From positions 1-64,000 of the forward strand of contig JAAFJG010000013.1 of assembly GCA_013298075.1 (NCBI GenBank): a DNA stretch of 64,000 nucleotides, in the 5' to 3' direction. The notes below the pieces were generated by a model, which had not been told where the DNA came from, ran no database searches, and saw only the letters and a list, made by a program, of their open reading frames with translations. This DNA comes from Cytophagales bacterium (GTDB lineage Bacteria > Bacteroidota > Bacteroidia > Cytophagales > Microscillaceae). The translations under genes and the position numbers were made by a program. This document shows, piece by piece, positions 2,946 through 46,867 of this stretch; positions within the stretch are counted from its first letter, which is position 1, and each line of letters begins with the position of its first letter.

Positions 2946-5930
2946 TTAAAATGAATACAAAACACTAAAATTAGCAGAACGAGGCAAAATAAAAATTCCT
3001 GTATTAACAATATTATTATCTTGTGCGGCAATAGATCCGATATTGTCCTGAGTACGTGTGTTGCCTTCCGTAATTCCTACCGCATCAAATATATTGATAC
3101 CTTGTATGCCCAACGTAAATTTGCCTGTTTTATAACTTGCTCCTGCGCCCACTTCAGAAAACGAAGGAAGTTTATACGTATTTCTACGATTGCCCCAACG
3201 CGAGCCAATATAACGCCAATTCACATAAAAATTGAATTTTTTAATCGTATAATCAGCCGTTAAATCTATTTGAATAGGCGGAACTCTCTCTACAAAATTA
3301 TTCGAAACATCAATTTGACGAGTGGCTGTAGTTGGGTTAATTCTATCGTTTACGTTTACTTCACTAATCGTAATCATTGGATATTTTGTATAAATGGCTC
3401 TTTGTAAAGATAAATTTCCGCTAAATTTTAAATTTTTAATCGGCGAATAAATTGCTTCTACTTCCAAACCTACCGTTCTGACATCATACAATAAAACATC
3501 TAATTGAATATTGCCACCTGCACCCGCTGACTGCAAAGTAAAAGGTGCATCTGTGATTTGTGTCCCAAAAATTGTAGCCGTTAAACCATATTTTTCTTTT
3601 GAAATTCTTGTGCCAATTTCTCCCTGTAAAATTTGTTCAACTGGATTTCTCAAAGGAATAGGCGAAAAAGTTGGATTGATAAAACCATTGTTATCATAAG
3701 CATTTGTCTGACCTGTCAAGGCTGTTCCCGATAATAAACCTTGGTCTTTATTGGCAATAAAATTTTGCGTAGTTGCATATCTTGTACCTCTTGACGCATT
3801 AAAAAATAAAGCAATATCTTCATTTATTCTATAATTTGCCCCTAAATTTGCGCCCCAAACATCATATTTTGTATTATACAACAAAAAAGTTGGCAAAGGA
3901 ATATCTGCATTGTTATCAAATAAAGTAAAAGAATTACCATCTAAACCACCAATTCCACCAATAGCAGTTGTCATTGGACTTCCTGCACGCACTATGCCCG
4001 CAGTGCGTCCATCACGTCTGCCTGTATTTTGCAATGTTCCTGTGGCTTGATTGACTTCATATCTAAAACCTGTCGTAATATTTAATTTGTCGGTAGGTTT
4101 CCATTCGTGTCCAATAAATCCAGCAAAAGTAATATTTCTTGAATTTGACCTTTCGTATTGAAAATTAGCACTCGAAACCCCACCTCTTGAAATTTCATAT
4201 ACTTCACTTGGATTACTTGTTCTTTGTAATTGCACATCAATCAATCTCGGATTACTTTGTAAATCCATCAATAAAGAGTTAAAATTCCAATATTCATCAG
4301 AATTATAAGCACTCAAATATCCACCAAAATTAAGTGTATGTTTGCCTATTGTTTTGCTTAATTGTAAATTATTGATAAAATTTGTATTTTGTGAATTAGT
4401 TATAAACATTCCCATTGTGCTTAACATTCCATTGCGATTCAATAAATTTGCTTGCGGAATATTATTAGTTGCCAAACTCGAAAAAGGAATTATTTCGCCC
4501 GTTATTGCAGCAGGTTGGTATAGATTGCCATTGGTTTGCAAAGGATTTGAGTAACGAATAATAGGCGTAAAAGCACCCAAACCACCTGTCAATAGCAATG
4601 GATTTCCTGCCACTGCACCTCCTAAAAGAGTTTGAATATTAGTCGGATTAGCCACTAATTGCATCAATGAAACCTGTCCACTTGCGTTCACGTAGCGTAA
4701 TTGATTTTTTAATTGCCAACCATCTCCCAAATCGTATTGCAATTCTACTCCTATATTTTTATATTTGAATTGTCCTGTATTGCTCGCACTTGCACGCCTA
4801 AATTGTCCGGGGTTTAAAGGATCAGGAAGGTTAATATCTCCCGCATTTGAAGGAATCAAATTTGCTTTTGTGAGATTATCAAAACCAGAAATGGCTCTTG
4901 GTTTATCATATCCTTGATAAGGCGTGGCTGTCCAAATATTGATATTATCATCTAAGACTTTTCCATAAAAACGAATATAACTTTTTTCGCTATTATCCAA
5001 AAAACGAGTAATATTTAGTTTTACTTGCCCGCCTACGTTTGCTGCCCCCGTAAAATCTCTCAAACCTTTGTCATAACGATAAAATCCGCCTACATTAAAA
5101 CGCCATTTTTTATCTTCTGACAAAGCACCCCCAACATTAAAATCAACTCTATATAATTGTTGAGTTCCGTAAGTATATTTTACATCACCTTTTAAAGTTG
5201 GTCCGCCTGTTTTGCTCACAAAATTGATGATACCACCGGGCGTATTGCTCGAAAAAATAACGGCATTTCCACCTCTTAAACCTTCTACTTTTTCGATAGT
5301 TAAATCATTTTTAGTAAACGCATCAGCATTAAAAAAAGTTTTATCAGACACTTCAAAATTATTCAAACCATCTTCTCTCAAAGCAGTATATCTAAAACTT
5401 CCTGTGCCAATCGGCAATCCACGTGGATAAATATTGTTGATCCCTTCACCCAAACCACTTTCTACATAAAAACCCGGAATAGCATCAATTACTTCTCCTG
5501 TACTTCTTGCGGCTTGTTGTTCGATAGTTTTTTGGTCTAAGGTTGTGATAGAAACCGTAGATTCTAATTTTGTTTGTGGATTAAAAGTACCCGTAATGAC
5601 TATATCATCAAGTCCTAAAAAATCGTCTTGTAAATTGATATTGGGTGTTAAATTTTCGTTGCCTTCTACAATTTTAATGACTTCTTCTTTTGTTTTGAAA
5701 CCAATAAAAGAAAAAACAAAAGTATATTCTGCTTTTTCTAATTTTTCAAAATAAAATTCGCCATCTTGATTGGTTGTTGTGCCTTTTTGTGTGCCTTTGA
5801 TAACTACATTTGCCCCAACCAAAGCCGTTTGATTATTATCAAATACTTTACCTCGAATGGAAGCATTTTGAGCATTTATAGTATTGAAAATCAATGCAAT
5901 AGAAAAAAATAATAGATAAAAAATTTTCAT
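2946..5930 (-). CDS. TonB-dependent receptor with carboxypeptidase-regulatory-like N-terminus
   Basis: An outer-membrane active transporter that takes up a ligand using energy from TonB-ExbBD. It has a signal peptide (MKIFYLLFFSIALIFNTINA, ending AQ), then a CarboxypepD_reg-like domain (about 22-105), a plug domain containing ITGTFNPQTKLESTVSITTL and PGGIINFVSKTGG, and a C-terminal beta-barrel ending in aromatic Phe (FSVLYSF), as expected for BAM-dependent insertion. At about 994 residues the length is normal. The plug and barrel (for example NAVIFSSNTPGGIINF) resemble FecA/siderophore-type receptors rather than SusC, and no SusD partner is adjacent. The ATG at 5930 is preferred to an earlier start seven codons upstream because it directly begins the signal peptide. 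The ligand is unknown. Confidence 0.92.
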   Translation of the reverse strand: MKIFYLLFFSIALIFNTINAQNASIRGKVFDNNQTALVGANVVIKGTQKGTTTNQDGEFYFEKLEKAEYTFVFSFIGFKTKEEVIKIVEGNENLTPNINLQDDFLGLDDIVITGTFNPQTKLESTVSITTLDQKTIEQQAARSTGEVIDAIPGFYVESGLGEGINNIYPRGLPIGTGSFRYTALREDGLNNFEVSDKTFFNADAFTKNDLTIEKVEGLRGGNAVIFSSNTPGGIINFVSKTGGPTLKGDVKYTYGTQQLYRVDFNVGGALSEDKKWRFNVGGFYRYDKGLRDFTGAANVGGQVKLNITRFLDNSEKSYIRFYGKVLDDNINIWTATPYQGYDKPRAISGFDNLTKANLIPSNAGDINLPDPLNPGQFRRASASNTGQFKYKNIGVELQYDLGDGWQLKNQLRYVNASGQVSLMQLVANPTNIQTLLGGAVAGNPLLLTGGLGAFTPIIRYSNPLQTNGNLYQPAAITGEIIPFSSLATNNIPQANLLNRNGMLSTMGMFITNSQNTNFINNLQLSKTIGKHTLNFGGYLSAYNSDEYWNFNSLLMDLQSNPRLIDVQLQRTSNPSEVYEISRGGVSSANFQYERSNSRNITFAGFIGHEWKPTDKLNITTGFRYEVNQATGTLQNTGRRDGRTAGIVRAGSPMTTAIGGIGGLDGNSFTLFDNNADIPLPTFLLYNTKYDVWGANLGANYRINEDIALFFNASRGTRYATTQNFIANKDQGLLSGTALTGQTNAYDNNGFINPTFSPIPLRNPVEQILQGEIGTRISKEKYGLTATIFGTQITDAPFTLQSAGAGGNIQLDVLLYDVRTVGLEVEAIYSPIKNLKFSGNLSLQRAIYTKYPMITISEVNVNDRINPTTATRQIDVSNNFVERVPPIQIDLTADYTIKKFNFYVNWRYIGSRWGNRRNTYKLPSFSEVGAGASYKTGKFTLGIQGINIFDAVGITEGNTRTQDNIGSIAAQDNNIVNTGIFILPRSANFSVLYSF

Positions 5931-6170
5931 AAAATTATTCCTTACTCCCAAGGAAAATAAATTAAAAATAAAACCTTTTGGAGTAAAAAGGTTTTTAGAA
6001 GTGCAAATATCAAAATAAAAAAATAAAAATAATATTTTTTTCGTGTTTTTTATGATTCGTCAAATCTAAATATAAAAAAGTATTGGGATAATTTGAGATA
6101 AATTAATCGAGTATTTTAGAGTTTGTGCATAAAAAAACATACTTTTTTAGTTTATTTTTAAACTTTTCAA

Positions 6171-6178
6171 TACCTTTG
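6171..6178 (+). promoter_or_regulatory. TAnnTTTG promoter element for sufD
   Basis: TACCTTTG, 40 nt upstream of the sufD ATG, is an exact match to the Bacteroidota -7 element. Confidence 0.65.
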
Positions 6179-6217
6179 CAAGTTATTTAGCATATAAGTA
6201 GATTTTTAAAAGTTAAA

Positions 6218-7534
6218 ATGAATATATCATCATCAAATTTTAGTGAGGTTTTTGTCAATTATTTTCAACAAGTAGAAGAAAAATTGAACGGAGAAAAAAC
6301 AACTCCTTTACATCATATAAGAAAAAAAGCAATCGATTTAGTTGCTCAAAAAATTATTCCAACTATCAAAGACGAAGAATGGAAATATACAAACTTGAAC
6401 AAAATTTTTAAACAAGATTTTATATTTGACACCGAAAATACAGATATTTCTACTGATATTTTAAAAAATATTCCTTTGATAAATTTAGATACCTATCGTT
6501 TAATTGTCGTAAACGGCGTTTTTAAACCTAATTTATCACATTTGCCCACAGGAATAGAAATTAGCACTATCACAGAAGCATACAAAAAAAATGCAACTTT
6601 GGTAGAAAAATATTTCTCAAAAGTTCCTGAATGGGAAAATGAATTATTTACTGCTTTGAATACTGCTTTTGTTGCACAAGGTTTGTTTATCTATGCTGAT
6701 AAAAATACACATCTCGATAAACCTATTTTAATTCAACATATTACCAATAGTGAAAAAAATAATATGATGAGTTTGCCAAGACATTTGTTTATTTTTGAGC
6801 AAGGAAGTAAAGTTGATTTGATAGAAAATTATTTAACTTTGGGTGATAATTATTCGTTTGTCAATGGCGTAACCGAAATTTTTGTGATGCCTAATGCCCA
6901 TATTTCTCACACAAAAATTCAAAATGAAACCGAAAAAGCGTTTCAAATATTGACTACACAAGTGAAACAAGAAAAAGATAGTATTTATGATAATATTACT
7001 ATTTCTTTCAAAGGTGCTTTAATTCGTAATAACTTAAATATTCGTTTATCAGGACAAAATATTGAATCAAATATGTTCGGTTTGTATATGTTGGACGGAA
7101 AAACACACGTGGATAATCATACGATTGCTGACCATATTGCGCCACATTCTGTGAGCAATGAATTATACAAAGGCATTTTAGATGACCATTCGACAGGCGT
7201 ATTTAATGGAAAAATTTTTGTCAGACAAGACGCACAAAAAACCAATGCGTATCAACAAAATAGAAATGTTTTATTGACCGATACTGCCAATGTAAACACA
7301 AAACCACAATTAGAAATTTGGGCTGATGACGTAAAATGTTCACATGGAGCAACGATTGGTAAGTTAGATTTGAATGCGTTATTTTATTTGAGAGCAAGAG
7401 GAATTACTGAAAAAAATGCAAAAGCGTTGTTAGTGCAGGCTTTTGGGCAAGAAATTATTGATAAAATAACTTTTGAACCGTTGAAAGAATATTTAAGTGC
7501 GTTGTTGATAGAAAGATTGCATATTGATTTTTAA
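6218..7534 (+). CDS. sufD: Fe-S cluster assembly protein SufD
   Basis: A subunit of the SufBCD scaffold that builds Fe-S clusters in the cytoplasm. The 438-residue length and the C-terminal core are typical: the signature (residues about 365-420) includes KPQLEIWADDVKCSHGATIG, then LFYLRARGI and a final helix with LIERLH. The N-terminal helical region contains DEEWKYTNLNKIF, also typical. sufB and sufC are not adjacent: the upstream neighbour is a divergent TonB-dependent receptor and the downstream one is pyrE, so the rest of the system must be elsewhere. A clear promoter and a downstream hairpin suggest a single-gene transcript. Confidence 0.95.
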   Translation: MNISSSNFSEVFVNYFQQVEEKLNGEKTTPLHHIRKKAIDLVAQKIIPTIKDEEWKYTNLNKIFKQDFIFDTENTDISTDILKNIPLINLDTYRLIVVNGVFKPNLSHLPTGIEISTITEAYKKNATLVEKYFSKVPEWENELFTALNTAFVAQGLFIYADKNTHLDKPILIQHITNSEKNNMMSLPRHLFIFEQGSKVDLIENYLTLGDNYSFVNGVTEIFVMPNAHISHTKIQNETEKAFQILTTQVKQEKDSIYDNITISFKGALIRNNLNIRLSGQNIESNMFGLYMLDGKTHVDNHTIADHIAPHSVSNELYKGILDDHSTGVFNGKIFVRQDAQKTNAYQQNRNVLLTDTANVNTKPQLEIWADDVKCSHGATIGKLDLNALFYLRARGITEKNAKALLVQAFGQEIIDKITFEPLKEYLSALLIERLHIDF

Positions 7535-7573
7535 TCGATTTTTAATTTCTTATCAAAAAAATAAATTTATCAT

Positions 7574-7618
7574 AAAATACAAAAAACATCAAATTTTTGA
7601 TTTTTTTTGTATTTTTTT
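7574..7618 (+). terminator. Terminator hairpin after sufD
   Basis: AAATACAAAAAA pairs with TTTTTTTGTATTT and is followed by a T run, 40 nt past the stop codon. Confidence 0.75.
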
Positions 7619-7630
7619 TGAAAAAAATAT

Positions 7631-7638
7631 TACCTTTG
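7631..7638 (+). promoter_or_regulatory. TAnnTTTG promoter element for pyrE-rodA
   Basis: TACCTTTG, 28 nt upstream of the pyrE ATG, matches the -7 consensus. Confidence 0.65.
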
Positions 7639-7666
7639 CAATCAATTTTTACGCATACATTTATAT

Positions 7667-8302
7667 ATGAAAAATATTGCTCAAGAAATGGCTAATTATT
7701 TATTAGAAATTTCTGCTGTTCAATTCAATTTTAAACAACCTTTTCGTTGGAGTTCGGGCTGGTTATCGCCTATTTATTGTGATTGTCGGCTGACTTTATC
7801 TTATCCAATTATCAGAAATTTTATTACAGATTCGTTTGTAGAAATTATAAAAAATCAATATCCTCACACGCAAGCGATTGCAGGTGTGGCGACTGCGGGT
7901 ATTCCACAAGCGGCTTTGGTGGCTCAAAAACTTGATTTACCTCTTTTATATGTGCGTGCAAAGGCAAAAGAACACGGCAAAGAAAATTTGATAGAAGGAA
8001 AAATTATAGATAATCAAAAAATAATTGTCATCGAGGATATTATTTCGACAGGTGGAAGTTCTTTGAATGCAGTAAAAGCATTACAAGACGCAAATATGGA
8101 AGTTTTGAGTACATTAGCCATTTTGAGTTATGGTTTCGAAACGGCTCATCAACAATTTAAAGAACAACATATAAACCTTGATACGTTGAGTGATTATACG
8201 TATTTGATAAAAGAATACGCCAAAAAAGAAGATTTATCCGAAGAAATAATGGCTTCTTTGTATGAGTGGAGAAAAAAACCAAACGAGTGGAAAGGAATTT
8301 AG
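7667..8302 (+). CDS. pyrE: Orotate phosphoribosyltransferase
   Basis: Converts orotate and PRPP to orotidine monophosphate in pyrimidine synthesis. The PRPP-binding loop is clear: IIVIEDIISTGGSSLNAVKA near residues 117-136. The family's N-terminal substrate region (FKQPFRWSSGWLSPIYCDCR) and GVATAGIPQAALVA are also present. At 211 residues it has the normal length. The stop codon is 6 nt from the rodA start, so the two are almost certainly cotranscribed. A PRPP synthase gene lies 2 kb downstream. Confidence 0.95.
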   Translation: MKNIAQEMANYLLEISAVQFNFKQPFRWSSGWLSPIYCDCRLTLSYPIIRNFITDSFVEIIKNQYPHTQAIAGVATAGIPQAALVAQKLDLPLLYVRAKAKEHGKENLIEGKIIDNQKIIVIEDIISTGGSSLNAVKALQDANMEVLSTLAILSYGFETAHQQFKEQHINLDTLSDYTYLIKEYAKKEDLSEEIMASLYEWRKKPNEWKGI

Positions 8303-24157: not shown

Positions 24158-24384
24158 AAAATCAATCTCAAAAAGCTTTGAACAAAGTTGATAAGAGAGC
24201 ATCTAAAAAATAAATTACCTAGAAATATGAACATACATATAAAAATTTTTATTGAGTATAATATTTTTTACTTGCCCCCAAAACAACAAATAAATCATTT
24301 TTTTGAAAGTCAAAAAAAATAGAATCAAATTATTTTACACACTTTTAATTACAGTAACAAAATAATTAAAATTTTTGAAAAATA

Positions 24385-24485
24385 TAAATTCGAGAAACTT
24401 AGAGATTTTGGATAAAGCTAACTATTAAATTCATATTATCCTCCAGATAAATCTGGAAGCAATTCAAAAAATACATTTCAAAAAA
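24385..24485 (-). repeat. Family A dispersed repeat, reverse orientation
   Basis: Reads, on the plus strand, ggataaagctaac, then attatcctccagataaatct, ggaagcaattcaaaaa, the inverse of the family A left half. It sits between the NucS-like gene and recQ; no gene is seen in this roughly 400-base spacer. Confidence 0.8.
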
Positions 24486-24577
24486 AAAGGCATTTTCATT
24501 TTCCTCACAAAATTCCTAAAAACTATATTTTTTTTACAAAATTATTTTTTTTATTGTTACTTCAAAAAAATATAATT

Positions 24578-31359: not shown

Positions 31360-32994
31360 TTATTTTTCCTTTTGATTTCTTTTTATTTTTTCCTTTAAAT
31401 CTTTAATTCTTTCGTTCAAAAGTTCTTTTTCTTTGCTCAAAGAATCTAAGGCTTCATTTTTTGAGAAATCGACAGGCGTTGCACTTCTTAATTTACAAGC
31501 ATATTTGGACGCATTGACCGTTTCTTGCACTTTGAATGCAATTTTTTGTCCTTCGTTTATTTCAGAAATTTCCTTTTCGACTTTTTTAACTTCTTTTCCT
31601 TTATTATTATAAAAAATAACATCAATGATAATATCTTTAAATTTCGCATCAGTTTTTTTGTTCGATACTTCGATATTGATGGTAAATTCACCCATTTCCT
31701 CGTTTTCGAGTTGGTCAGCTACGATTAAACTTTTATTGAGTTCAGATTTTAATATTTTTTGATATTCTTTTTCTTTTTCCTCAAATTTTGTTTTTGATTT
31801 TTCTAAAGAATCTAATTCGAGTTCGTCTTCAGATTTTTTATCTTCTTTTTTGTCCTCTTTTTTATCTTCTTTTTTGGCTTCATCTTTTTTTCCTAAACTA
31901 TCATCAACTTCGGCTGTTTCATTTTTATTTTCTTTCGACTTTTTATTAAATTCTAAGAATATTAAATAACCAACCACACAAATTAGAAAGAAAAATAAAA
32001 GATATAAAATAGTATAAGAACGTTTTCGAGAGGCTTGAATTTGATTGATTCGAGAAGGTTGATTGTTATTATTATTACTATTATTTGAAGAATTTTGTGC
32101 CGAATTAGTTTGCGTATTCGAATAAGTATTATTTTTAGGTTGAGTTTGAGTAAAAGAAGAAGTTGTGGGCGTAGCTTTTTCCATTAACGCTCTTTTTAAT
32201 TCTTCACAACTTTGATAACGGTCGTTTGGATTTTTGGCGGCTGCTACTTCGATTATTTTTTGCAAATAATCAGGTACAGAAGGATAAAAATCTTTTGCTT
32301 TGGGCAAAATTTCGTTCAAAATTTTGTTATAAATCGAAAATTCTGTTTCAATATTTTCATTATAAGGCGAAGTTCCTGTCAGCATTTCCCACAACGTAAC
32401 GCCCAAAGAATATATATCACTTCGAGCATCTAAATTTTCACCTTTTACTTGCTCAGGACTCATATAAAGCACTGTTCCGATTCTTGCCCCTGCTTTTGTC
32501 ATCGCAGGTTTATCATTTTTTAGGATTTTTGCGATACCAAAATCCAAAATTTTTGCTTGTCCATCTAATCCAATCAAAATATTAGAAGGTTTTATATCTC
32601 TATGCACAATTCCTTTGGCGTGTGCATACGCAAATCCATCTAAAATTTGATAAAAAATATCCAAAGCACGTTTTTCATTCAAAGGACCTGAAACATTTTT
32701 CAAAAACTCATCTAATGGATGTCCTTCTACATATTCCAATATCAAAAAAAGTCCTTTTTCATTTTCTAAATAATCGTATAAAGTTACAATATTAAGATGT
32801 TGCAAACCAGAAAGCGTAGTTGCTTCTTGTCTAAAACGGTCTTTTACTTCTTGGTGATTGACAAGAGCAGGATTTAAGACTTTGATAGCCACTTTTCGTC
32901 CTAATTGAATATGTGTGGCTAAATAAACCTGTCCAACTCCTCCTTCTCCCAATAGTTTTTCAACTTGATAATTTAAAATGCGTTCTCCAATCAT
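31360..32994 (-). CDS. Membrane Ser/Thr protein kinase (PknB-like)
   Basis: An N-terminal kinase domain (about 1-270): GEGGVGQVYLA glycine loop, VAIKVLNP, catalytic VHRDIKPSNILI, DFGIAK (DFG) and MSPEQVKG (APE-like). Then a Ser/Asn/Gln-rich linker, a single membrane span (YTILYLLFFFLICVVGYLIF, about 340-360), a charged low-complexity stretch (KKEDKKEDKKEDKKSEDELE), a beta-rich region (EFTINIEVSNKKTDAKFKDI) and a coiled-coil tail that would lie outside the membrane. There are no PASTA repeats. The ATG at 32994 fits the family start (MIGERILNYQVEKLLGEGG), 24 codons inside a longer frame. The promoter and first codons are duplicated at 35.2 kb. Confidence 0.92.
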   Translation of the reverse strand: MIGERILNYQVEKLLGEGGVGQVYLATHIQLGRKVAIKVLNPALVNHQEVKDRFRQEATTLSGLQHLNIVTLYDYLENEKGLFLILEYVEGHPLDEFLKNVSGPLNEKRALDIFYQILDGFAYAHAKGIVHRDIKPSNILIGLDGQAKILDFGIAKILKNDKPAMTKAGARIGTVLYMSPEQVKGENLDARSDIYSLGVTLWEMLTGTSPYNENIETEFSIYNKILNEILPKAKDFYPSVPDYLQKIIEVAAAKNPNDRYQSCEELKRALMEKATPTTSSFTQTQPKNNTYSNTQTNSAQNSSNNSNNNNNQPSRINQIQASRKRSYTILYLLFFFLICVVGYLIFLEFNKKSKENKNETAEVDDSLGKKDEAKKEDKKEDKKEDKKSEDELELDSLEKSKTKFEEKEKEYQKILKSELNKSLIVADQLENEEMGEFTINIEVSNKKTDAKFKDIIIDVIFYNNKGKEVKKVEKEISEINEGQKIAFKVQETVNASKYACKLRSATPVDFSKNEALDSLSKEKELLNERIKDLKEKIKRNQKEK

Positions 32995-33106
32995 TTTTTT
33001 AGATGAATTTTTAATATTTTCCTTTTTAAAAAACGTAAAATTACAAACGATTTTATATATTACCAAAAAAAAGATGTTTTTATTGCTTATAAATTGATAT
33101 TAAAAC

Positions 33107-33147
33107 AAAAAATCACGCTTAAATGGTTTTTAAACGTGATTTTTTTT
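33107..33147 (-). terminator. Terminator-like hairpin, copy 1 (kinase leader)
   Basis: AAAATCACG pairs with CGTGATTTT and is flanked by A and T runs, between the paralogue A stop codon and the kinase start. The same hairpin appears at 35293-35332. Confidence 0.75.
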
Positions 33148-33184
33148 GGATAGAAAATGGTTTGAGTGATGTTTTAACTTAAAA

Positions 33185-34123
33185 TTATTCAAAAACTTCT
33201 ATGCCTATAGCAGGAGTATAATAAGTATCTTTTTCTGTTTCATCAAAAAAACGAAATCCACGATCATACTCGTTCCACTCTTTCAATTTTTTATGAATAT
33301 TCGATATATTATAACGCCTATAAGTGTAAATTATTTTTTTTGTTTTGATATAAAAAACCCCTGTTTCCAATTCAGTGTTAGAATAAAAGTCATTTTTAGA
33401 ACGCATAAATTGTGGTATAATTTCTTTTGTTTTTTCATCTACTTTTCCAATGTATTCTATTCCCACAAATAAACCTTCTTTAGGTAACACAATACCTAAA
33501 TCTTGAATATTCAATTCTATTTTTTGTTTTCTACGTTTGCCTTTCTTTAAAGTAAAGATATTACTTTTTTCTTTGATTGCGTACGCTTCATCTGGTTGAT
33601 TATTCTTATTTTTGTAGAAATGAAACTTAAAAAGTACATCTAAATTTTGATTTCTTCGGGACAAGACAAATAACAATGATTTGATTTTTTTATTTTTGTT
33701 ATAAGGATTTTGAATAAGTGTAGTGGCTTCTTGACCTGAAGTAAATATAAAATTACTATTTGTTCGTTTTGAAGCAAATCCTAAATTTTTAATTTTTTTT
33801 TTCTGGCTTGTTACCACTACTTCGTCCAAGTGTATAAAATCGTCATCTAAAAAAAATTTATTTGGAATTTTATCAGTTTCTATTTCTTCAGTATGATAAT
33901 TTGTAGCATAAACCCTTATCAATTTGATATTTTTGGGTATATCTAATTTTATTTTTCCTTCTTCATCAGTTGGAAAGATACCTACAATAGAATCATTCTC
34001 AATATAGGTAACGGTTGCAAAAGGAATTGGCTTTTGTGTTTGTTTCGATAATATTTGTATTTCTTGGGCAGTGATATACGAAATATTGAGTAAAAGAAAC
34101 AGCAATAAAATAAGTTTTTTCAT
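33185..34123 (-). CDS. Secreted hypothetical protein, paralogue A
   Basis: 312 residues with signal peptide (MKKLILLLFLLLNISYITAQ), then a carboxypeptidase-regulatory-like beta domain (EIQILSKQTQKPIPFATVTY...TDEEGKIKLDIPK, about 21-105) and a second region (about 115-312) with LPKEGLFVGIEYIG and a C-terminal YYTPAIGIEVFE. The TonB-linked 'regulatory' domain is present but no plug or barrel follows, so it is not a receptor. It is clearly related to the protein at 35370-36371. Its start overlaps the methyltransferase stop by 4 nt (ATGA), so translation of the two should be coupled. Confidence 0.75.
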   Translation of the reverse strand: MKKLILLLFLLLNISYITAQEIQILSKQTQKPIPFATVTYIENDSIVGIFPTDEEGKIKLDIPKNIKLIRVYATNYHTEEIETDKIPNKFFLDDDFIHLDEVVVTSQKKKIKNLGFASKRTNSNFIFTSGQEATTLIQNPYNKNKKIKSLLFVLSRRNQNLDVLFKFHFYKNKNNQPDEAYAIKEKSNIFTLKKGKRRKQKIELNIQDLGIVLPKEGLFVGIEYIGKVDEKTKEIIPQFMRSKNDFYSNTELETGVFYIKTKKIIYTYRRYNISNIHKKLKEWNEYDRGFRFFDETEKDTYYTPAIGIEVFE

Positions 34124-35181
34124 TTTTTGATATATTTAGGTATTTTAAAGTGAATGTTTAGATGTCTTTTATTTCTGATTAAAATTCTAAAATATGGACA
34201 TTTTCCATTGATAGATAAATCTTTATTATCATTTCCTTTTCTAAATTTAATTATTTCAAATTGGTCAGGATTAAATTTATGTAAAAAGGTAATTGGAACG
34301 CCCATAATTCCTTTGTAATCCATAGGAATATCTTTGGTTTTATTGATATTTATAGCATCATAATTATCAAATATAGGATATTGACTTTCATTGCCTTCAT
34401 ATTTTTTAGAGAGAATAATATCTTCATATCGTTTTGAGGTGTCCAAATTTGTGAGCCACAAACAATTATTAGGAGAAATTATTCTATTACCTAAATCATC
34501 AATACGAGCCTCAGTTCCATACAATTCGTAATGCTCGGGAACTATAAAACCTGAAATACCTCTCCCCATATTGATGCCTAACCAAGCCTTATTTTCTTTG
34601 ATTAATTTAAAAATTTCTTTGTATGTTATAGCATTGATATTGCCGATGATTAGAAATTTTTTTTCGTATTTTATTAGTTGCTCTACATATTCTCTAAATA
34701 ATGAAAAAGGTGGATTGGTAACAATAATATCAGATTGTTTCAAAAGTTCGATAGATTCTTGACTACGAAAATCACCATCTTCTTTGAGATATTTTATGCC
34801 GATTTCTTCTGCATCAGGGATTTTATTTTCATTTTTCTCGCCTAAATATTCAAGAAATACTCCATTTTGAGATTCTTTTTGAATAAATAAATCTTTTTCT
34901 TGTTTTTTATAACAAGTTGTGAGTAATTTTTTTAATCCTAAATTTTCAAAATTATAAGCAAAATAATTAAAAAAATTACTATTTCTGGGGTCATCACAAT
35001 TACAAAAAACGACTTTATTTTTAAAGTGTTCTTTGTAATGTTTCAATTCTCGTTCTATATCTGAAAGTTGTGTATAAAATTCATCTTTTTTTGAAGATTT
35101 TGCTATATGTAATGTTTGGTTTAATGTTTTTTCGACTATCATTTTTCGTAATGGTTTTTCAAAAATGCGTTCTCCAATCAT
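34120..35181 (-). CDS. EcoRI-type adenine-specific DNA methyltransferase (N6-A)
   Basis: Adds a methyl group to adenine in a DNA target. The order of motifs closely follows M.EcoRI: KSSKKDEFYTQLSDIERELKHY, VVFCNCDDPRNSNFFNYFAY, catalytic motif IV in DIIVTNPPFSLFREYVEQLI (NPPF), YKEIFKLIKENKAWLGINMG, then SGFIVPEHYELYGTEARID and ISPNNCLWLTNLD and FLHKFNPDQFEIIKFRKG. I infer GAATTC specificity from this, but it is untested. M.EcoRI-like sequence begins near MIVEKTLNQTLHIAKSS (ATG 35142). The 13 codons before it (MIGERIFEKPLRK) start exactly like the nearby kinase, so the leader was copied from that gene. No matching endonuclease gene lies next to it. Confidence 0.92.
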   Translation of the reverse strand: MIGERIFEKPLRKMIVEKTLNQTLHIAKSSKKDEFYTQLSDIERELKHYKEHFKNKVVFCNCDDPRNSNFFNYFAYNFENLGLKKLLTTCYKKQEKDLFIQKESQNGVFLEYLGEKNENKIPDAEEIGIKYLKEDGDFRSQESIELLKQSDIIVTNPPFSLFREYVEQLIKYEKKFLIIGNINAITYKEIFKLIKENKAWLGINMGRGISGFIVPEHYELYGTEARIDDLGNRIISPNNCLWLTNLDTSKRYEDIILSKKYEGNESQYPIFDNYDAININKTKDIPMDYKGIMGVPITFLHKFNPDQFEIIKFRKGNDNKDLSINGKCPYFRILIRNKRHLNIHFKIPKYIKK

Positions 35182-35400
35182 TTTTTTAGATGAATTTTTA
35201 ATATTTTCCCTTTAAAAAATGTAAAATTACAAACGATTTTATATATTACCAAAAAAAAGATATTTTTATTGCTTATAAATTAAAGTTAAAACAAAAAATC
35301 ACGTTTAAATGGTTTTTAAAGGTGATTTTTTTGGATAGAAAATGGTTTGAGTGATGTTTTAACTTAAAATTACTCGTAAACTTCTATGCCTATAGCAGGA
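35150..35400. repeat. Duplicated kinase leader, intergenic region and paralogue 3' end
   Basis: This stretch is nearly identical to 32971-33225: same gcgttctccaatcatttttt, same atatattaccaaaaaaaaga, same hairpin (aatcacg...tgattttt), same ttgagtgatgttttaactta and ctatgcctatagcagg. One copy lies between kinase and paralogue A, the other between methyltransferase and paralogue B. Confidence 0.9.
35293..35332 (-). terminator. Terminator-like hairpin, copy 2
   Basis: AAAAAATCACG and GGTGATTTTTTT, the diverged copy of the 33107 hairpin, just after the stop codon of paralogue B. Confidence 0.65.
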
Positions 35401-36371
35401 GTGTAAAAAATATTTTTGGTTGTTTTATCTAAATCTTGATATATTTTGCTATAGTCGTACCAATCTTTACTATATATTCCTTTATCTAAATTAGAGAATT
35501 TGCGTCTCTGGTAACTGTAAGTAGTTTTTGCAGCTTTAATATACTTTATTCCAATTATATTATTAACATGTTTTTCTCCATCCATAATATTTTTTGGAAT
35601 TATCTTATTTGTTTTCTCGTCTATCAATCCCATGAACTCCAAACCTATAAATAAACCTTCCTTTGGCAGTTTTATTTCTAAATTTTGAATATCTATTTTT
35701 ATTTTTTTACTTTTATTCTTCTTTAGAATAAAAATATTATCATTATTTTTTGTATGTAATTTTTGGGGTTTATCATTTTCGTTTTTATATAGATTTATTT
35801 TAAAATACGCATCTAAATTTTGTTTATATGTATATACAATAAAACAAATTGTTTTTATATTTTTATCTATGTTATAAGGGTTTTTTATTAGGGTAGTTAT
35901 TTCTCCTCCCGAAAAGAAAACGTGACCATTTCTTGTTTTCTCTAAAAAATATCCCAAGTATTTAGTAGGTATTTTTTTATTCGTTATTATAATTTCTTTT
36001 AAATATGTTGTAGAATCTTGAGAAAAATTTATATTCTTTTTTAATAAATTAAAAGTATCTTTTGTTAAAAAAAAAATATCTGAATTTATGTATTCATTTA
36101 AATATATTTTTTGAGGTAGGTTTTTTGATGGTATTTTCAATAGATTTTCTTCATTAGTAATTTCTAATGAGTCAATATCACTATCAATATTAATATCTGC
36201 TTTACCTATAATATTTGTGTAAACGCCACCACCACGATAAAGAGAATTTTTGGAAACATATCTTATTTTTGAGAAAGAAAGGGGTTGTTTCGTTTGCTCT
36301 GATAATACTTGTATTTCTTGAGCAAATACTGATAGTGAGTTAATAAATAAATAAATAAATAAATATTTCAT
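35370..36371 (-). CDS. Secreted hypothetical protein, paralogue B
   Basis: 333 residues with signal peptide (MKYLFIYLFINSLSVFAQ) and the same layout as paralogue A: EIQVLSEQTKQPLSFSKIRY, then a middle region with ITTLIKNPYNIDKNIKTICF, then LPKEGLFIGLEFMGLIDEKT and YTPAIGIEVYE at the C-terminus. The sequence has drifted further from A in the N-terminal domain than at the last 40 codons, which fall in the duplicated block. Function unknown. Confidence 0.72.
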   Translation of the reverse strand: MKYLFIYLFINSLSVFAQEIQVLSEQTKQPLSFSKIRYVSKNSLYRGGGVYTNIIGKADINIDSDIDSLEITNEENLLKIPSKNLPQKIYLNEYINSDIFFLTKDTFNLLKKNINFSQDSTTYLKEIIITNKKIPTKYLGYFLEKTRNGHVFFSGGEITTLIKNPYNIDKNIKTICFIVYTYKQNLDAYFKINLYKNENDKPQKLHTKNNDNIFILKKNKSKKIKIDIQNLEIKLPKEGLFIGLEFMGLIDEKTNKIIPKNIMDGEKHVNNIIGIKYIKAAKTTYSYQRRKFSNLDKGIYSKDWYDYSKIYQDLDKTTKNIFYTPAIGIEVYE

Positions 36372-36506: not shown

Positions 36507-37121
36507 TTAACAAATTACACTATCTATTTCTGTTTTTGTTACTCTTATCCAAAAGAAATAACCAACCATATAACACAATCTCTCTCCCATTACGCAACTT
36601 CCACATTCTACTCTATTACCTATAAATGGTCTTCTCTCTACAATATCTATATCATTATTCTGTTCTACTACTTTAATAATATCAAACTCATTAGTAGAAG
36701 CATAATCAGATGTTTTATCAATATCACTTATAATAGTAGTTGTGTTATTTGATATATTTACAACCGTCATTTTATATGTACTTCTATCAACATCCGTAAA
36801 ATAAGTAGGATTTTTTCCTGTAATATCAGTTAAGATATACCCTCTTGCTTTGGCTTCGTCATTAATAATTATCTCAGAAACAAGATAATCTACACTATTA
36901 TCAGTGGTTTTAATTTGTGCGCCAATAGTGTAATTAGCTCCCTTGTAAAAAGAACTAATAAAAGCTTGAGTTGTTGTACTAAGGTTTGTTCCTCTTTTTA
37001 CAATTTGATTTTGTAGTTCATTTTTTTGAGGTTTTGGGAGTTCATTTTGTGTCATTTTATTACAAGAAATAGGTAATAACATAACTACTAAAAGAATTGA
37101 AGATAACAATATTTTTTTCAT
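36507..37121 (-). CDS. Hypothetical lipoprotein
   Basis: 204 residues with a type II signal peptide (MKKILLSSILLVVMLLPISC), so Cys20 is the likely lipidated residue. The mature part has polar beta-type sequence (NYTIGAQIKTTDNSVDYLVS) and a Cys-rich C-terminus (VECGSCVMGERLCYMVGYFFWI...VIC) with four Cys that could hold disulfides or metal. No family recognised. It is transcribed away from the XRE regulator gene, sharing an intergenic region with a perfect dyad. Confidence 0.7.
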   Translation of the reverse strand: MKKILLSSILLVVMLLPISCNKMTQNELPKPQKNELQNQIVKRGTNLSTTTQAFISSFYKGANYTIGAQIKTTDNSVDYLVSEIIINDEAKARGYILTDITGKNPTYFTDVDRSTYKMTVVNISNNTTTIISDIDKTSDYASTNEFDIIKVVEQNNDIDIVERRPFIGNRVECGSCVMGERLCYMVGYFFWIRVTKTEIDSVIC

Positions 37122-37275: not shown

Positions 37276-37650
37276 ATGAAAATAGGTGAAAAAATTAAAA
37301 AATTTAGAGAATATCGAGGATTTAAACAAGAAGTATTAGCCGAAAAATTACAAATGACACAAGCAGGTTATAGTCGTTTGGAGCGTAGAGAAGTAGATAT
37401 ACCTTTTAGCAGACTTGAACAATTATCAAAAGTACTTGATGTGCCTATGCGTGATTTAGTGAGTTTTGATGAACAATCTATGATTACTAACTACATTACA
37501 AGCAGTCAATTATTTACAACTAATGGTTCTATAATAGCGGATAAAGAAGTTTTAGTAAAACTTGAAAAACAATATGAATCTCGTATTGAAGCACAAGAAA
37601 AAGAAATAGAACGTTTACACGAACTTGTAAAGCAAATTCTTATGAAATAA
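37276..37650 (+). CDS. XRE-family helix-turn-helix regulator
   Basis: 124 residues. The N-terminal HTH (about 1-65) reads KIKKFREYRGFKQEVLAEKLQMTQAGYSRLERREVDIPFSRLEQLSKVLDV, a normal Cro/CI-type domain. The C-terminal 45 residues form a coiled coil (VLVKLEKQYESRIEAQEKEIERLHELVKQILMK) likely to dimerise it. Small XRE proteins next to methyltransferases often act as controller proteins, but stand-alone regulators of this build are also common in Bacteroidota. The nearby dyad suggests autoregulation. Confidence 0.85.
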   Translation: MKIGEKIKKFREYRGFKQEVLAEKLQMTQAGYSRLERREVDIPFSRLEQLSKVLDVPMRDLVSFDEQSMITNYITSSQLFTTNGSIIADKEVLVKLEKQYESRIEAQEKEIERLHELVKQILMK

Positions 37651-37795: not shown

Positions 37796-37884
37796 GTAAA
37801 ATTACAGATCCAAAAAATAATAAAATATCTTTTGAGGCATATTTGTTTAAAACTTTCTTATCTAATAACATGAGAGTAATAAAT

Positions 37885-38970: not shown

Positions 38971-39043
38971 CTACTATCAAAACATACAAAAATCTCGCAA
39001 GATTTTTAAAACCTTACGAGATTTTTGTATGTTTTGATAGTAG
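38971..39043. terminator. 27-bp perfect hairpin (73-base palindrome)
   Basis: CTACTATCAAAACATACAAA + AATCTCG (38971-38997) pairs perfectly with its complement at 39017-39043. The 19-base loop is itself partly complementary (CAAGATTTT and AAAACCTTA). It lies downstream of the minus-strand gene ending at 39063. Confidence 0.85.
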
Positions 39044-46210: not shown

Positions 46211-46418
46211 TACATATTTTTTGAAAAATTATAAAATACTTGAAAACTGTGGAAAAAAATATTTTTTTAATAAAAAAGTCTTTAAAACCGCTTTAAATAA
46301 GTTTTTTTTATTCTTTGTTTTTTGATAAATAATTATCCAAATATAATTTGGTAAAAATATAAATCTTAAATTTTTATTTTGTTATCTTTTTTTACAATTT
46401 TTATTTTTATTGATTTAT

Positions 46419-46556
46419 TAGAGTTTTTTTAAATAGTAGCCAAAAATTGACAAAAATCATTAAAAATTCAAGAAAAAAGAAAAAAAATCCGTATTAATCC
46501 GCTAAATCCGTGTTATCTGTGTGCTAAAATCTCTTTCATTTAAAAAATACTATTAG
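46419..46556 (+). repeat. Family B dispersed repeat, copy 2
   Basis: Near-identical to 44207-44340 in the same orientation; the last 70 bases (aatccgtattaatccgctaa, atccgtgttatctgtgtgct, aaaatctctttcatttaaaa, aatactatt) differ by one or two bases. The remaining 500 bases of the gap 46184-46892 are AT-rich and hold no gene that I can see. Confidence 0.9.
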
Positions 46557-46867
46557 TTAAATACAGTTTTTTAATGAAATATATTTATTATTTAAAATTT
46601 GCATATTTGAGTTTTTGCCAAATAATATTTTGTAAAAAATATATAATTATTTTTTTTTAAGAATAAAAATAAATTTTAAATAAAATTAAGAAAATAAATT
46701 TTTTTTTTCACATCTTTCAACTTGATAAAAGAAAAGTTTTTTTCTCCACAAAAATTGTTAGACAACCACATTATTTTCTCCTTGAAATAATAATATTTTT
46801 CAAGGATACAAATACTTATTATTTATTTATCAAACGAAAAAAAATAGTTTTTTATGATTTTTATGAG

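Follow-up and report, generated by a model that had tools for sequence, protein, structure and literature searches.

A methyltransferase gene of the M.EcoRI family that probably came to lie behind the promoter and first codons of a nearby kinase gene through local duplication

In the window (the whole stretch of 64,000 nucleotides analysed here), a local tandem duplication of roughly 2.2 kb has probably set a gene for an M.EcoRI-family DNA adenine methyltransferase behind a copy of the promoter and leader of a nearby Ser/Thr protein kinase gene, with that gene's first codons included. The genes and repeat copies concerned are the following.

31360-32994, minus strand: Ser/Thr protein kinase gene (PF00069, E 6.8e-61), starting MIGERILNYQ; native owner of the promoter and leader
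32975-33232, minus strand: repeat copy at the kinase, holding the last codons of gene B, terminator, promoter, leader and kinase codons 1-7
33185-34123, minus strand: gene B, secreted, weakly CarboxypepD_reg-like (domain match below the curated cut-off)
34120-35181, minus strand: M.EcoRI-family DNA adenine methyltransferase gene (PF13651), hybrid at both ends (start MIGERIFEKPLRK, tail HLNIHFKIPKYIKK)
35140-35142, minus strand: M14, the start codon of homologues, by comparison with their termini
35162-35420, minus strand: repeat copy at the methyltransferase, the derived copy (blastn and sectionwise comparison)
35370-36371, minus strand: gene B', an old paralogue of B (no Pfam match)

The first-pass annotation had described about 250 bases around the kinase start as recurring near the methyltransferase start. 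Indeed, a blastn comparison of the window against itself aligned 32975-33232 with 35162-35420 at ~93% identity and a spacing of 2187 bp; the blocks lie where they had been placed (32971-33225 and 35150-35400), with their exact ends a few bases off, and the hairpin and neighbouring-gene 3' end said to be part of the repeat are present in both copies. Identity amounts to 106/110 (96.4%) across promoter, leader and codons, 94/100 across terminator and 3' UTR, and 32/36 across the last 36 nt of B/B'. The repeat then runs on at 73% identity into B and B' (762 columns in total), and outside the block B and B' resemble each other no more than old paralogues do, their proteins being 44% identical across the C-terminal two thirds. 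This divergence, much greater than that of the leader copies, led us to reject the idea that B was simply duplicated along with the leader in a recent event. In the 4.7-Mb draft genome (153 contigs, 97.9% complete), good matches to the block occur at these two places alone (489 and 382 bits) and there is no third copy; the other matches are short, AT-rich and of at most 55 bits, which puts the repeat far beyond chance.

Kinase orthologues with the same start region are found in two further genomes, G001 (same genus) and G002. The G001 orthologue (87% protein identity, start MVGERILNYQ) is preceded by a homologous promoter and leader of ~90-110 nt at 85% identity. Upstream of the -33 box the G001 sequence is unrelated to the window, and the next upstream gene is divergent; genus-level conservation covers the core promoter plus leader only. 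Gene B and the methyltransferase are both absent at the G001 kinase locus. As the leader is present there without either gene, it is native to the kinase, which at the level of sequence establishes the direction of copying as kinase to methyltransferase and agrees with the earlier proposal that the methyltransferase took over the kinase promoter and start. The G002 kinase retains MIGERILNYQ, behind a largely different leader. The two window copies (96% alike) are closer to each other than either is to G001 (85%), so that the copying occurred later than the split from G001. Given a kinase dS of ~0.6 between the window species and G001, the duplication would be about one tenth as old as that split if the block evolves near neutrality.

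The match of the methyltransferase to PF13651 (EcoRI adenine methyltransferase) extends over positions 2-344 of the 345 in the profile (E 9.7e-135); a sequence search of solved structures with it gave no match. Its predicted activity is adenine methylation of GAATTC, a specificity that we presume from the family. The frame reads MIGERIFEKPLRK-MIVEKTLNQ..., and its first six residues are those of the kinase, so that, as first read, MIGERI stands in frame before M14. Homologues start at or near the M14 equivalent (MIAEKTL, MARK), and the MIGERI prefix occurs in none of those sampled (80 genome loci, the relatives' matches and 292 genomes of the order). The search of relatives that the first-pass annotation had suggested thus recovered no other methyltransferase with the hybrid start, hence none in a relative lacking the kinase. 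One of the closest homologues lies in the same-family genome G004, with the same leader sequence as locus L033. As to start codon use, an A stands at both -3 and -6 of the kinase ATG, and M14 has A at -3 and C at -6; A at both positions is favourable for start codons in Flavobacterium (PMC6847099). Because of its better context, the kinase ATG is the likelier start, and the main product would be the longer protein with 13 extra residues.

Both copies of the block carry the same predicted promoter.

33036-33067, minus strand: predicted kinase promoter, TTTG-N20-TAATTTTA (-33 box 33064-33067, -7 box 33036-33043), conserved in G001
35222-35253, minus strand: predicted captured promoter, TTTG-N20-TAATTTTA (-33 box 35250-35253, -7 box 35222-35229)

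At the methyltransferase, the copied leader places TAATTTTA 48 nt upstream of M1 and TTTG another 20 nt beyond it, with both boxes and the distance between them preserved. Primary promoters of Bacteroidota follow the consensus TTTG/TANNTTTG (PMC6847099; the -7 box is also given in PMC9723704). Since the last base of TAATTTTA differs from the TANNTTTG consensus (G missing) and a loose form of the promoter pattern has 26 matches in the window, conservation in G001 weighs more than the pattern match. In 8/8 distinct closest methyltransferase-first loci (80-86% identity), a TANNTTT(G/A/C) box lies 28-34 nt before the start ATG; in homologues with a nuclease gene upstream, the box is mostly absent. 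In contrast to those eight loci, the window methyltransferase has no such box within 70 nt before M14 and thus lacks a native promoter, which supports the takeover first proposed. With a promoter region duplicated in a known direction and the native promoter absent, the locus reads as promoter capture by duplication.

A terminator hairpin precedes the promoter in both copies, and the one upstream of the methyltransferase is the weaker.

33107-33145, minus strand: terminator hairpin after gene B, upstream of the kinase (-17.0 kcal/mol, z -6.7)
35293-35331, minus strand: terminator hairpin after B', upstream of the methyltransferase, weakened by a mismatch (-11.2 kcal/mol, z -5.5)

Given this weakening, some read-through from B' into the methyltransferase is possible. 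Such read-through would also be compatible with a neutral scar that has no effect on regulation, in which the methyltransferase is decaying and is either expressed from B' or silent. Besides the weakened terminator, the missing nuclease partner (see below) speaks for this reading, as does the recent date of the event (copies differing by 4-6%, kinase dS 0.6 to G001), which means that an intact methyltransferase frame proves little. We nevertheless consider a neutral scar rather unlikely, as the frame is intact across the whole PF13651 profile, comparison with homologues gives a dN of 0.07-0.11 and a much larger dS of 0.66-2.5 (values that mostly reflect older history), and the copied promoter has kept its boxes and their spacing.

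In seven of the eight closest homologues, the gene after the methyltransferase is of one and the same kind, and both of those that were tested encode EcoRI endonucleases (PF02963, with E 7e-118 and 2e-118). No EcoRI endonuclease match was found in the draft genome of the window species, so the window enzyme is a solitary methyltransferase, and, judged by its gene content, the system lacks the cognate endonuclease gene of a complete EcoRI-type restriction-modification (R-M) system. It resembles the solitary DNA methyltransferases, as termed in a review (PMC3874152), in having no detectable EcoRI gene in the genome, and differs from them in that the promoter and both termini of the gene are hybrid. 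Depletion of GAATTC (8 seen versus 30 expected) was discarded as a trace of a former nuclease, since CAATTG and GATATC are equally depleted and the effect is unspecific. Elsewhere in the genome, contig C77 (L161) holds a second, divergent M.EcoRI-family methyltransferase gene (5873-6943), whose intact frame of 356 codons rules out a degraded gene; a 360-codon gene overlapping it (6940-8022) may encode its nuclease partner. On contig C67 (L162), a short 3' fragment of an M.EcoRI-family methyltransferase gene (5625-5780) lies beside an intact unrelated frame.

The 3' end of the window methyltransferase is likewise hybrid. Close homologues end in ILIKNKKL or similar; the window enzyme extends as HLNIHFKIPKYIKK. 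The DNA of this tail is the leader of B, as seen from the B paralogue on the genome's own contig C5, whose ATG is directly preceded by CATTCACTTCAAAACACTTAAATATATCAAAAAAATG, against CATTCACTTTAAAATACCTAAATATATCAAAAAATG in the window; the B ATG overlaps the methyltransferase TGA as ATGA (34120-34123). A remnant of the same junction lies upstream, beyond a module that includes B'.

36507-37121, minus strand: lipoprotein-like DUF gene of the HTH-DUF-B module (module comparison)
37276-37650, plus strand: HTH regulator of the HTH-DUF-B module (PF01381, E 4.7e-12); the module also occurs on contig C5
37684-37788, minus strand: remnant comprising the 3' end of the methyltransferase gene with most of the B leader (3 mismatches in 105 nt versus 34135-34239, 97% identical)
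37797-37804, minus strand: TAATTTTA before the remnant, possibly the native methyltransferase -7 box, possibly chance

The divergence of the remnant (3/105) is similar to that of the block (4/110). It is preceded by TAATTTTACATTTTTT; joined to the 5' UTR that is kept as FEKPLRK, this sequence would form a native leader with a -7 box at -34, like those of the homologues. The flank may perhaps also be read as MLLDKKVLNKYASKDILLFFGSVILHFLKE, a truncated gene. The upstream end of the remnant shares a 23-nt similarity with the methyltransferase leader. We rejected the reading that a gene carrying the captured leader was deleted and left this scar: the similarity breaks off directly upstream of the -7 box, which makes a native promoter or chance likelier. 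G001 and G002 differ in the regions that follow the glycosyltransferase.

We suggest that the duplicated unit ran from the methyltransferase through the B leader, B, the terminator and the promoter/leader to kinase codons 1-7. Because tandem duplication joins the end of a unit to its beginning, it would produce exactly the hybrid start, with kinase codon 6/7 fused in frame to the old methyltransferase 5' UTR just before the old start. Copy 2 would thereby have come to lie behind the kinase promoter, and copy 1 would have remained upstream with the native promoter. Later, all but a small part of the methyltransferase gene would have disappeared from copy 1, and the HTH-DUF-B' module would have taken the place of B there, with one end of the exchange in the final ~22 nt that B-type genes conserve. 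The surviving methyltransferase-B pair would be transcribed from the kinase-type promoter and translated mainly from the kinase ATG, or from M14, with the ATGA overlap coupling translation of B to that of the methyltransferase; this bicistron would end at the terminator before the kinase, which has kept its original promoter. The remnant has the order and orientation required by tandem duplication. What counts against the model is that it calls for a second event, the replacement of B by HTH-DUF-B', plus deletion of the methyltransferase, both in copy 1; no strain with the intermediate arrangement was seen, and the remnant may have arisen by a separate duplication. A 6-nt microhomology at the junction was rejected upon recomputation, which left only 4 nt of a T run.

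The block has one gradual edge, inside the B/B' homology, and one sharp edge, at codon 7. A single event could give both if an incoming methyltransferase-B fragment had inserted with a long target duplication, or by homology-facilitated illegitimate recombination (PMC3240628), through a homologous crossover in the B-type 3' end and an illegitimate join at kinase codon 6/7, duplicating the sequence between. Insertion of R-M genes with long, variable target duplications has been reported (Nobusato et al. 2000, as cited in PMC3031569), and the window resembles that account in that an R-M-derived gene adjoins a long direct host repeat. In the window, however, there is no nuclease gene and B separates the methyltransferase from the second repeat, so that the direct repeats flank the methyltransferase plus B instead of immediately flanking an R-M pair; the remnant, moreover, suggests tandem duplication. 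Insertion could fit if B had come with the insert, but close homologues adjoin an EcoRI gene, not B, and the upstream methyltransferase/B-leader remnant would be left without explanation. We therefore regard insertion as unlikely.

The start of the DUF gene (~36971-37121) shares ~150 identical nt, ending at the ATG, with the C5 paralogue (L165 ~1960-2107); the rest of the two genes is only ~70-77% alike. This shared stretch implies that recent ectopic copying in the module family is real, and it would represent another recent partial copying or gene conversion. Together with the B-type tandem arrays of the related genome G013, it lends some support to one-sided gene conversion, whereby the region from the B 3' end to the kinase start was copied onto a B'-methyltransferase junction and replaced the native promoter, with B', methyltransferase and B already in a row. 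Such a conversion would need homology at one end only and does not account for the remnant, and we judge it improbable. In G013, the arrays lie on contigs C132 and C185 (L108, L114, L116, L118, L120) and comprise 2-3 copies with ~27-nt spacers.

That kinase and methyltransferase answer one signal, as first proposed, is plausible, because the copy took in everything upstream of the kinase that G001 shares; yet this shared part amounts to a core promoter plus leader, and the terminator before the methyltransferase is weakened. We consider it very doubtful that the captured promoter makes the methyltransferase and the signalling kinase a co-regulated pair, as a recently evolved epigenetic output of kinase regulation; if so, an inducer of the kinase would also alter genome-wide methylation and expression of gene B.

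Promoter capture by tandem duplication underlies citT activation in the Lenski E. coli experiment (Blount et al. 2012, as cited in PMC4718724), where, as proposed here, a duplication sets a gene behind the promoter of a neighbour. Measured against citT, the window differs in that the start codon and six residues would have been captured too, and the native-promoter copy then mostly lost; it is also a case found in nature. Promoter capture by duplication and solitary methyltransferases are thus already known, and the window is a clean, well-polarised case, not a new kind of system. It would provide a natural, polarised example of an R-M leftover gene kept and rewired without its nuclease, in which ~2 kb of duplicated DNA brought in promoter and start codon from the host, after which little was left of the other copy. 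As both copies, the remnant and an unduplicated relative are all readable, the steps can be ordered. For annotation, the first 13 and last ~14 residues of the enzyme are not ancestral.

The window holds other repeats as well. A near-perfect inverted repeat with 36-nt arms and a 1-nt loop (38971-39043; 94% complementary) separates two minus-strand genes, and interspersed repeats, in pieces that are 82-91% identical, are shared between the window (46296-46720 and 24327-24536) and contig C5 near the HTH-DUF-B module (L165:1379-3184).
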